Shown here: one piece after another, positions 18,735 through 64,000 of the stretch
Numbering within the stretch: position 1 is the first letter of the stretch
Layout of the letters: each line of letters opens with the position of its first letter
Assembly (NCBI GenBank): GCA_016795465.1
Contig: JAEUHK010000062.1
Coordinates: 1-64,000, forward strand
Direction of reading: 5' to 3'
Origin: Verrucomicrobiaceae bacterium
GTDB lineage: Bacteria; Verrucomicrobiota; Verrucomicrobiia; Verrucomicrobiales; Verrucomicrobiaceae
Length of the DNA stretch: 64,000 nucleotides
Made by a program: the position numbers and the translations under genes
The notes under the pieces: generated by a model
What the model saw: the letters and a program-made list of their open reading frames with translations, nothing else
Databases searched by the model: none
Told to the model about the DNA's origin: nothing

Positions 18735-18751
18735 CGCTCTCGAATCGAGAA

Positions 18752-18825
18752 GTTGGAGTCTAGGCTTTAGCCGATCTTTGACCTCTCAACCTTCCCAAAC
18801 CGTCGGCTAAAGCCTAGACTCCAAC
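18752..18825. repeat. Large palindromic intergenic repeat, 23-nt perfect arms
   Basis: Arms at 18752-18774 and 18803-18825 are exact reverse complements; the core of the left arm is GGAGTCTAGGCTTTAGCC. The loop is 28 nt (18775-18802). The element fills most of the 102-bp gap between two same-strand genes. Transcribed, it would make a very stable hairpin without a U-tract. It has the form of a REP/MITE-like mobile palindrome, the kind mobilised by RAYT-type transposases, but no such transposase is in the window. Confidence 0.8.
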
Positions 18826-18836
18826 CTCACCTTTCC

Positions 18837-61277: not shown

Positions 61278-62543
61278 ATGAATCGTCGTCATTTCCTTCT
61301 CAGTTCCCTTGGCACCACGCTCGCTTTGCCGAGCATGTCTTCTCTCATGGCGAAGTCCGTGGGCGGCTCCGTGCAGGCGGCGAAAGGCGCGGGCATGGGC
61401 GCTCGGCGCTTTGCCGCCATCGGCAACCTGCTCGGCTACCAGACGAAGAGCCTGTTTCCGACGACGCAGGGCCGGAATTACGAGAAAACGGCGTTGCTGG
61501 AGCCGGTGTGGGACATTCGCGACAAGATGACCGTGTTCCGTGGCCTCGATCATGGCGTGAAGGGCGGGCATTTCGCGGTGCATTCGTTCCTGTCCGGCGT
61601 GCTGCATTCCGAGGCGCAAAATCGGCCGGATGGCAATGTGACCATCGACCAGTTCCTTGCGGACGAGGTGGGCTTCGAGACGCGGTTTCCATCGCTCACG
61701 GTCGGTTCGGAGGGCGGCATTCATGGCGGCTGTCAGATCGCGTGGACGAAGTCGGGCGTGCGTGTGCCGCCGGTGACGAATCCGGCGGAGTTGTTCGAAA
61801 AACTCTTCATCAGTGACTCGCCGGAGCGTCAGGCACGTCGGGCGCAGGAGAACAAGGTGCAGGCCTCCATCCTCGACTCCGTTTTGGACGAGGCGAACCG
61901 CCTTTCCAAGAAGGTGAACCAGGAGGACAAGGCCAAGCTCGATGAGTATCTGACCTCCGTGCGCGATGTGGAGAAGCGCCTCGAACTGCGCCAGCGCTGG
62001 ACGAACCAGCCGAAGCCGAAAGCGCCCTTCGACAAGCCCGCGAACCGCAACGCCGTCGAAGATCTGCCGCTGCTGTATGAGCTCATCGCGCTCGCTTTGC
62101 AGACGGACAGCACGCGCATCGCCACGCTGGAGATCGGCGGCGACTTCATGCCGCAGCATCTCGGCATCAAGAAGGACTGGCACGGCCTTTCCCACCACGG
62201 CAACGACGAGGAGGCCATCGCGAGCCTCATCACGCTGGAGAAGTATCAAATCGAGCACTTCGGCAAGTTCGTGGCCCGTCTCGCGAAGATGAACGACGGC
62301 GAGCGCTCGCTACTCGATTCGACCACCGTGCTTTTCGGCAGCGGCATGGGCGATGGCAACGTGCACAAGAACACCGACCTCCCCATCCTCCTCGCCGGCG
62401 GTGGCTACAAGCACGGCGAATATCGCGAAGTCCCGCGCGAAGGCATCAACAAGGTGCCGCTGTGCAATCTCTTCGTCGATATCGCTCAGAAAATGGGCGT
62501 GGAAACCGATTCGTTTGGCAGCAGCACGGGACGTTTCGCGTGA
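61278..62543 (+). CDS. DUF1552 protein with Tat-like signal
   Basis: 421 residues, MNRRHFLLSSLGTTLALPSM being a twin-arginine-type leader. DUF1552 marks: RFAAIGNLLGYQ, FPTTQGRNYEKTALLEP, KMTVFRGLDHGVKGGHFAVHS, GNVTIDQFLADEVG, and the terminal HGLSHHGND and GSGMGDGNVHKNTDLPILLAG. Like DUF1501 proteins it is found beside cytochrome-type proteins in Planctomycetota/Verrucomicrobiota; here it precedes the heme-motif gene at 62543, the two overlapping by one base (TGATG). Function unknown. Confidence 0.93.
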   Translation: MNRRHFLLSSLGTTLALPSMSSLMAKSVGGSVQAAKGAGMGARRFAAIGNLLGYQTKSLFPTTQGRNYEKTALLEPVWDIRDKMTVFRGLDHGVKGGHFAVHSFLSGVLHSEAQNRPDGNVTIDQFLADEVGFETRFPSLTVGSEGGIHGGCQIAWTKSGVRVPPVTNPAELFEKLFISDSPERQARRAQENKVQASILDSVLDEANRLSKKVNQEDKAKLDEYLTSVRDVEKRLELRQRWTNQPKPKAPFDKPANRNAVEDLPLLYELIALALQTDSTRIATLEIGGDFMPQHLGIKKDWHGLSHHGNDEEAIASLITLEKYQIEHFGKFVARLAKMNDGERSLLDSTTVLFGSGMGDGNVHKNTDLPILLAGGGYKHGEYREVPREGINKVPLCNLFVDIAQKMGVETDSFGSSTGRFA

Positions 62544-64000
62544 TGAGCATGTTGAATTCTCACGCAAAGGCGCAAAGGCGCAAAGGTTTCGCAAACAAGA
62601 CTCTGGGTTCATTCTTTGCGCCTTTGCGCCTTTGCGTGAGACCTGAATGGCTCGTTTTGGCCGCGTTCGCTTCTTCCCACGCCGCTGACGCACCACCAAA
62701 GGTCGTGCAGCAGTTCCTGGGCAAATACTGCCTCGAATGCCACGACGCGGATGTGCAGAAGGGCGACCGCTCGTTTGAGAAGTTTGAGCTGCCGCTGAAA
62801 GGGACTGCCGACCTCATCGAGGCGCGGGACATCATCGACCAGCTGACGCTGAAGGAGATGCCACCGAAAAAAGCGGACCAGCCGAGCGATGAGGAGCGCA
62901 TCGCCATGATCCGGGCGCTGCGTGACGGCACGGTGGTGGCGTATGGCAAGCTGCAGAGCACCGGCAGCCGCACGGTGATGCGCCGACTTTCCAGCCGCGA
63001 GTATGAAAACACGCTCGCGGTGCTGTTTGGCCGTCGCGTGGACACGCTGGGGCTCACGGCGGGTTTTCCGAAGGAGAAAACCACCGAGCACATGGACACC
63101 ATCGGCAAGTCGCTCGTGACCTCCGGCTTCCTCGTGGATCAGTATTTCCAATCCGCGAACCGCCTCGTCGAGACGCGACTCGGCAAACCGGCCACGCCGC
63201 CGAAGGATTGGAAGTTCAACGGCCACTTCGTGCAATACGAGGAGCTGCAAGGCTCGCACAAAAGCGCCTTCAACTACCGCTACCTCAATCTCTACGAGCA
63301 GCCGAACAGCGACACACGCCAGGGCGGCTACGGCCACATCGAGGACTTCAAGCAAGGTGTGCCCGTTTCCGGCCTTTACGACCTCGAAGTCGAGGCCACG
63401 GCGATGCATCGCGACACGCATTACGATCCCGCCATCTTCGGCATCGACTTCTCCGAGCCCTTCATCCTCGGCGTGGTGCCGGGCGATGTCACCGCGGGCC
63501 ACATTCATTATCCGCAGCCCATCGAGCCCGTGCTCGCCACCGCCGTCGTGCCGGACAATGAACCCAAGCGGCTCAAATTCCGCGTGTGGCTCGAAGCAGG
63601 CCAAACACCGCGCTTCATCTTCCCCAACGGCCCGTATGAATCCCGCGCCGCGGTCGTCACGATCAACAAGCGCTACAAAGACGAGTTCAAAGGCGACGTC
63701 GGCTCATCCGGCGTCGGTCGTGCGCACATTTTGAAGGAGGGCAAGCTCCCGCACATCCGCATCAGCGAGATCGCCATTCACGGTCCCTTGCCTGAAGCGC
63801 CTGGAGCCGAGGAAGTGGCCGTTTTTGGCAAAGAAGGCTTCCAGGAGGCCAAGGCGCTCGATCAATTGAATGCCTTCGCCGAGAAAGCTTATCGCCGTCC
63901 GATCACCGACGAGGACAAAAAGCCCATCCGTGCGCTCTACGAGAAGCGCATCGCCGAAAAAGCCTCGCCACGTCAGGCCGCGCTCGATGCGCTCAAATTG
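62543..64000 (+). CDS. Exported CxxCH (heme-motif) DUF1587/DUF1592-type protein, N-terminal part, cut by window end
   Basis: A continuous frame runs from 62543 to the window end, so the C-terminus lies outside. The visible part has KYCLECHDAD (CxxCH), MRRLSSREYENTLAVLFG (DUF1587 type) and AEKAYRRPITDEDKK (DUF1595 type); the family then has DUF1592, DUF1588 and DUF1585, beyond the window. Two starts compete. ATG at 62543 (or 62549) overlaps the DUF1552 stop but puts the palindrome 62558-62641 into the coding part. GTG at 62636, inside the palindrome's right arm, gives a signal-peptide-like start, MRPEWLVLAAFASSHAADA. I favour the GTG start weakly. The partner is the DUF1552 protein. Confidence 0.9.
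   Translation, partial: MSMLNSHAKAQRRKGFANKTLGSFFAPLRLCVRPEWLVLAAFASSHAADAPPKVVQQFLGKYCLECHDADVQKGDRSFEKFELPLKGTADLIEARDIIDQLTLKEMPPKKADQPSDEERIAMIRALRDGTVVAYGKLQSTGSRTVMRRLSSREYENTLAVLFGRRVDTLGLTAGFPKEKTTEHMDTIGKSLVTSGFLVDQYFQSANRLVETRLGKPATPPKDWKFNGHFVQYEELQGSHKSAFNYRYLNLYEQPNSDTRQGGYGHIEDFKQGVPVSGLYDLEVEATAMHRDTHYDPAIFGIDFSEPFILGVVPGDVTAGHIHYPQPIEPVLATAVVPDNEPKRLKFRVWLEAGQTPRFIFPNGPYESRAAVVTINKRYKDEFKGDVGSSGVGRAHILKEGKLPHIRISEIAIHGPLPEAPGAEEVAVFGKEGFQEAKALDQLNAFAEKAYRRPITDEDKKPIRALYEKRIAEKASPRQAALDALKL
62558..62641. repeat. Palindromic repeat with 28-nt perfect arms at the 5' end of the last gene
   Basis: Arms at 62558-62585 and 62614-62641 are exact reverse complements, separated by a 28-nt loop (62586-62613). 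The core is CACGCAAAGGCGCAAAGG with the internal unit GGCGCAAA repeated. It sits at the junction of the DUF1552 gene and the next gene, and its right arm holds the GTG start candidate. It has the form of a mobile intergenic palindrome of a different sequence family from the one at 18752. Confidence 0.8.

Follow-up and report, generated by a model that had tools for sequence, protein, structure and literature searches.

A dispersed palindrome in the leader of a verrucomicrobial PSCyt1-type gene is probably translated as an in-frame N-terminal extension

At the start of a gene for a PSCyt1-type protein in a Verrucomicrobiaceae bacterium (assembly GCA_016795465.1) lies a long, perfect palindrome. 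It is near the end of the 64,000 nucleotides of contig JAEUHK010000062.1 that were analyzed, here termed the window. An earlier note, made from the DNA sequence by itself, had proposed that this element was inserted into the leader region, and that it is either translated as an N-terminal extension from an ATG at 62543 or has supplied a new start, i.e., a GTG at 62636. We asked what kind of element the palindrome is, and which of these two outcomes is better supported. The features of the locus are listed in Table 1.

Table 1. Features at the junction of the DUF1552 and PSCyt1 genes (window coordinates)
Feature	Position	Strand	Basis
Upstream DUF1552 (HXXSHH) gene	61278..62543	+	Pfam PF07586, E 2.9e-79; ORF
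PSCyt1 / DUF1587 / DUF1595 protein gene, 852 codons, extending beyond the window end	62543..64000	+	
Ancestral start codon of the PSCyt1 gene, preferred start	62543..62545	+	Overlap also used by insert-free compact orthologues
Left arm of element A, TCTCA CGCAAAGG CGCAAAGG CGCAAAG, read SHAKAQRRK	62558..62585	+	
Element centre, 28 nt in the window copy; 11-21 nt in the other 20 complete copies	62586..62613	+	
Right arm of element A, CTTTGCG CCTTTGCG CCTTTGCG TGAGA, read FAPLRLCVR in the gene frame	62614..62641	+	
GTG within the right arm, rival start giving MRPEWLVLAAFASSHA	62636..62638	+	Sequence; kept in G014
Predicted signal-peptide hydrophobic core and c-region WLVLAAFASSHA, predicted cleavage before ADA	62648..62683	+	Inspection of translation
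Approximate recombination boundary, G014-like leader / G016-like body	62677..62683	.	blastn and PSC tree

The two arms are complementary at 28/28 positions and are separated by 28 nt, so that the palindrome is 84 nt long, or exactly 28 codons. The reading frame is open throughout, with 31 codons from the ATG to the GTG. The earlier note thus correctly described the 28-nt arms, the open frame adding about 31 residues and the GTG within the right arm. A short signal peptide beginning at this GTG is plausible. When the region was folded as single-stranded DNA, it gave z = -6.8 relative to shuffled sequences, with no shuffle (0) as good. The ATG shares bases with the TGA of the DUF1552 reading frame (TGATG). 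The downstream protein matched PSCyt1, with a CLECH motif at 62729-62743, as well as DUF1587 and DUF1595, and the ..HAAD.. boundary at the end of its predicted signal peptide is conserved among orthologues. A search of the window against Rfam returned one tRNA and nothing else. Another palindrome occurs at 18742-18835 of the window, with 33-nt arms that are 88% complementary (..GGCTTTAGCCGA / TCGGCTAAAGCC..); its sequence is unrelated to that of the element studied here, and it is probably the one that the earlier note counted as the first.

The palindrome is real, but not unique. The arm motif CGCAAAGGCGCAAAG had 79 matches in the 6.76-Mb genome (G000; 132 contigs), compared with 0 for the reversed control, and the genome contains 21 complete palindromes and several half copies of what we term element A. 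Its consensus is TCTCA-CGCAAAGG-CGCAAAGG-CGCAAAG, followed by a variable centre of mostly 17-20 nt and then the inverse arm, each arm representing three 8-nt units CGCAAAGG. The arms are stop-free in five of the six arm/frame combinations, and several of the copies are located within a coding sequence or on the 5' side of a gene. Because the arms are nearly invariant among copies, with one paired change only, covariation speaks neither for nor against a structural role. The window palindrome is one copy of a small dispersed palindromic element that is probably mobile. A chance inverted repeat or an assembly fold-back can be ruled out given perfect 28-nt arms and 21 sites; the sole point for a fold-back is that the draft assembly is fragmented, whereas the 21 sites differ in their centres and flanks, and a second assembly has orthologous copies at the corresponding sites (L014 and L219).

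Strict copies of element A were present in four of 48 genomes of the genus (12 in G000, four in G011, and two each in G016 and G040), and a draw of 386 other Verrucomicrobiota genomes from the phylum contained none. Identical arms were present in contigs labelled Planctomycetota and Acidobacteriota. There were no strict copies in viral contigs, no similar DNA was found in plasmid and phage records, a literature search for the repeat strings returned no paper, and NCBIfam contained no model for the leader peptide.

Comparison of the 5' end with palindrome-free orthologues had been suggested as a check on the insertion. Many such orthologues were found: in 20 of the 53 the leader is compact and free of any insert, with the overlapping ATG as start and a short, ~24-residue signal peptide. 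Relative to these, element A is an 84-nt in-frame insertion just after codon 5, between the ancestral ATG and the signal-peptide core. Together with the dispersal of element A, the insert-free orthologues support the proposed insertion into the leader. Joined-flank searches recovered homologous junctions but no high-identity empty site for the window copy. There was also no consistent direct repeat at the edges of element A copies, and the leaders diverge too fast to define edges at the level of single bases. In G011, G009 and G016 (L124, L123 and L120), about 0.9-7 kb of other DNA lies between the DUF1552 and PSCyt1 genes, so the junction takes insertions besides palindromes.

The orthologue in G014 carries a decayed insert of the same length, differing from that in G000 by 24 substitutions, half of them at third positions, with 0 indels and 0 in-frame stops (dN 0.25, dS 0.86). 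Stops are present in both other frames of this insert, and its hairpin is degraded although its reading frame is intact. In simulations, the probability of an open frame with so few amino-acid changes was about 0.10, so that frame conservation in G014 is weak as a sole line of evidence. The gene itself looks mosaic. The G000 leader resembles that of G014, and from about 62678, the position at which the blastn alignments to G016, G009 and G011 start, the body has ~98% protein identity to those three. The simplest account of the sequence pattern, and a likely one, would be a recombination boundary within the leader.

Other orthologues have different palindromes in the slot that element A fills in G000. 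Element B, an inverted pair of GTAG-stem units whose core is present in 23 of the 48 genus genomes, is found at the junction in 13 genomes. The right unit of element B contributes SSRGARGLLCFA to the signal peptide, usually downstream of a new ATG. Most B-type orthologues have the ancestral ATG out of frame, its role having passed to a new ATG located between the two inverted units. Element C (AACCGC..GCGGTT), another palindrome of this slot, occurs in 17 of the 48 genomes. Element D is found at the junction in G017 and G032, and in decayed form in G050; it is in frame with the ancestral ATG, and the hydrophobic stretch is encoded by its right arm. Element D has one site each in G017, G032, G000 and G016. 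On a tree of the gene body, at least 17 changes among junction states are needed, although this is not a count of insertions since recombination at the leader is likely.

Element A also lies in frame in other genes. An acetate-CoA ligase (L030, about 1913-2300) has a 57-residue in-frame insert, comprising the element A peptide and a further stretch with CTCTGCGG repeats, that is absent from its relatives L217 and L220 (in G040 and G036). In an AMP ligase (L009, 2045-2120), element A lies in frame in a linker at which relatives are variable; at this linker (L178/L218), G040 has a different repeat-like insert, in frame like the element A of G000. As the element is inside these two CoA-ligase genes, an alternative start cannot explain those copies away. 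Element A is also found in frame before the export signals of a TolC-like protein, a NodT-like lipoprotein, a pseudopilin, T2SS protein K and a GFO/IDH protein. The copy in the TolC-like gene is kept in frame in G011. In the NodT-like lipoprotein, element A is in frame in the signal peptide in G000 (L029), whose position in G039 (L164) is taken by a different palindrome, of GTAG type and likewise in frame.

Of the two outcomes envisaged in the earlier note, the extension from ATG 62543 is the better supported and the new start at GTG 62636 the less so. We favour the former because the ancestral ATG is retained, the insert comprises 28 whole codons, the frame is kept in G014, and the element is in frame in other genes, the last being stronger support for translation than the pattern in G014. 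We estimate a probability of about 0.7 that the palindrome is read as an N-terminal extension from ATG 62543, as a mobile in-frame insertion in the n-region of the signal peptide. If the element were instead untranslated, with the GTG opening the short signal peptide and the arms forming leader RNA, the basic residue after the GTG in both G000 (GTG AGA) and G014 (GTG AAG) would fit, and start replacement does occur at this junction, as most B-type orthologues illustrate. In addition, many N-terminal REPs of other species have been judged to be possibly extragenic (PMC3733652). However, GTG is the rarer start codon, and this one is embedded in the 3' arm of a perfect hairpin, where the upstream sequence consists solely of CTTTGCGCC repeats and lacks a purine-rich, Shine-Dalgarno-like stretch; moreover, the ancestral ATG stays in frame through exactly 28 codons, and element A lies in frame inside other genes. 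We therefore consider a start at the GTG unlikely.

One point against the extension is the RNA structure. Codons 1-52 have a predicted folding energy of -75.8 kcal/mol, and the 28-bp hairpin begins 15 nt past the ATG, which could hinder initiation. A very stable hairpin between two co-directional genes might itself be the functional feature, e.g., an attenuator, an mRNA stability element or a barrier to coupling that lowers expression of the second gene, with the peptide being incidental; effects on mRNA are known for REPs (PMC3733652). Nevertheless, there is no T-run past the hairpin and hence no classical terminator, several copies of the element are placed inside or 5' of genes, and in G014 it was the pairing that decayed and the frame that was retained. 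This explanation thus appears improbable.

The closest known kind of element, matched by behaviour, is the protein-coding palindromic repeats, i.e., the Rickettsia palindromic elements (RPEs) and intragenic REPs. Like the RPEs, element A is a dispersed palindrome lying in frame in protein-coding genes, N-termini included; its 21 complete copies (control 0) make up a dispersed palindromic family, and the acetate-CoA ligase is an in-frame insertion with insert-free homologues. RPE-1 N-terminal proteins have been reported as expressed (PMC3733652), and REPs occur inside ORFs and at NH2 termini, including in Opitutus terrae (Verrucomicrobia), although the authors cautioned that the N-terminal cases may come from misread starts (PMC3733652). 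The likeness to RPEs is one of behaviour; the host of element A differs in belonging to the Verrucomicrobiota. A further difference is that several copies lie ahead of export signals, and that different palindromes share one leader across species.

We also considered whether element A might be an ordinary GTAG-type REP or REPIN moved by a RAYT (Y1) transposase. Both are short, dispersed palindromes, some within ORFs; all genomes checked contained Y1_Tnp genes, and the element B that relatives carry in this slot does have the GTAG-stem, inverted-pair layout. However, the element A consensus has no GTAG or CGTC tetranucleotide beside the stem, its 28-bp arms of 8-nt units compare with 6-13 bp, and of 38 Y1 loci examined, none had a copy at a distance of 1.5 kb or less (0/38). 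An origin of this kind is highly improbable; with neither a tag nor a checked Y1 gene flanked by it, element A represents an orphan family. It resembles a MITE in being a small (about 70-85 bp), non-autonomous inverted-repeat element near genes, but differs in that the palindrome covers the whole element rather than only the ends; no parent transposon was found, and the copy edges showed no consistent direct repeat that would mark a target-site duplication.

In the model that we prefer, i.e., the translated extension, a copy of element A would have entered the gene for an exported PSCyt1-type protein in frame, immediately behind codon 5. Translation would start at the ancestral ATG, coupled to termination of the DUF1552 gene, and the ribosome would read through the element, producing a 28-residue extension, SHAKAQRRKGFANKTLGSFFAPLRLCVR. 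This would lengthen the basic n-region of the signal peptide ahead of the original hydrophobic core, and the leader would be cleaved off after export. Such an insertion would be tolerated, we propose, because cleavage removes the leader and the arms are largely stop-free. The start codon used, export, cleavage, and both the act and the agent of transposition are what we infer from the sequences.

A more speculative idea, which we think rather unlikely to hold, is that palindromes in this genus are recurrent raw material for signal peptides, with unrelated families landing in n-regions and being selected to persist there because arms with few stop codons specify a basic stretch (KAQRRK, SSRGAR) and then an apolar one (FAPLRLCV, GLLCFA). 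More broadly, palindromes that code in frame are known from intracellular Rickettsia and a small number of REP-rich species, and the findings add an orphan element whose arms are identical across three phyla. They are also a warning that some gene starts in Verrucomicrobiota and Planctomycetota may be misread, and they indicate signal-peptide leaders as a site where such elements are tolerated and reused.
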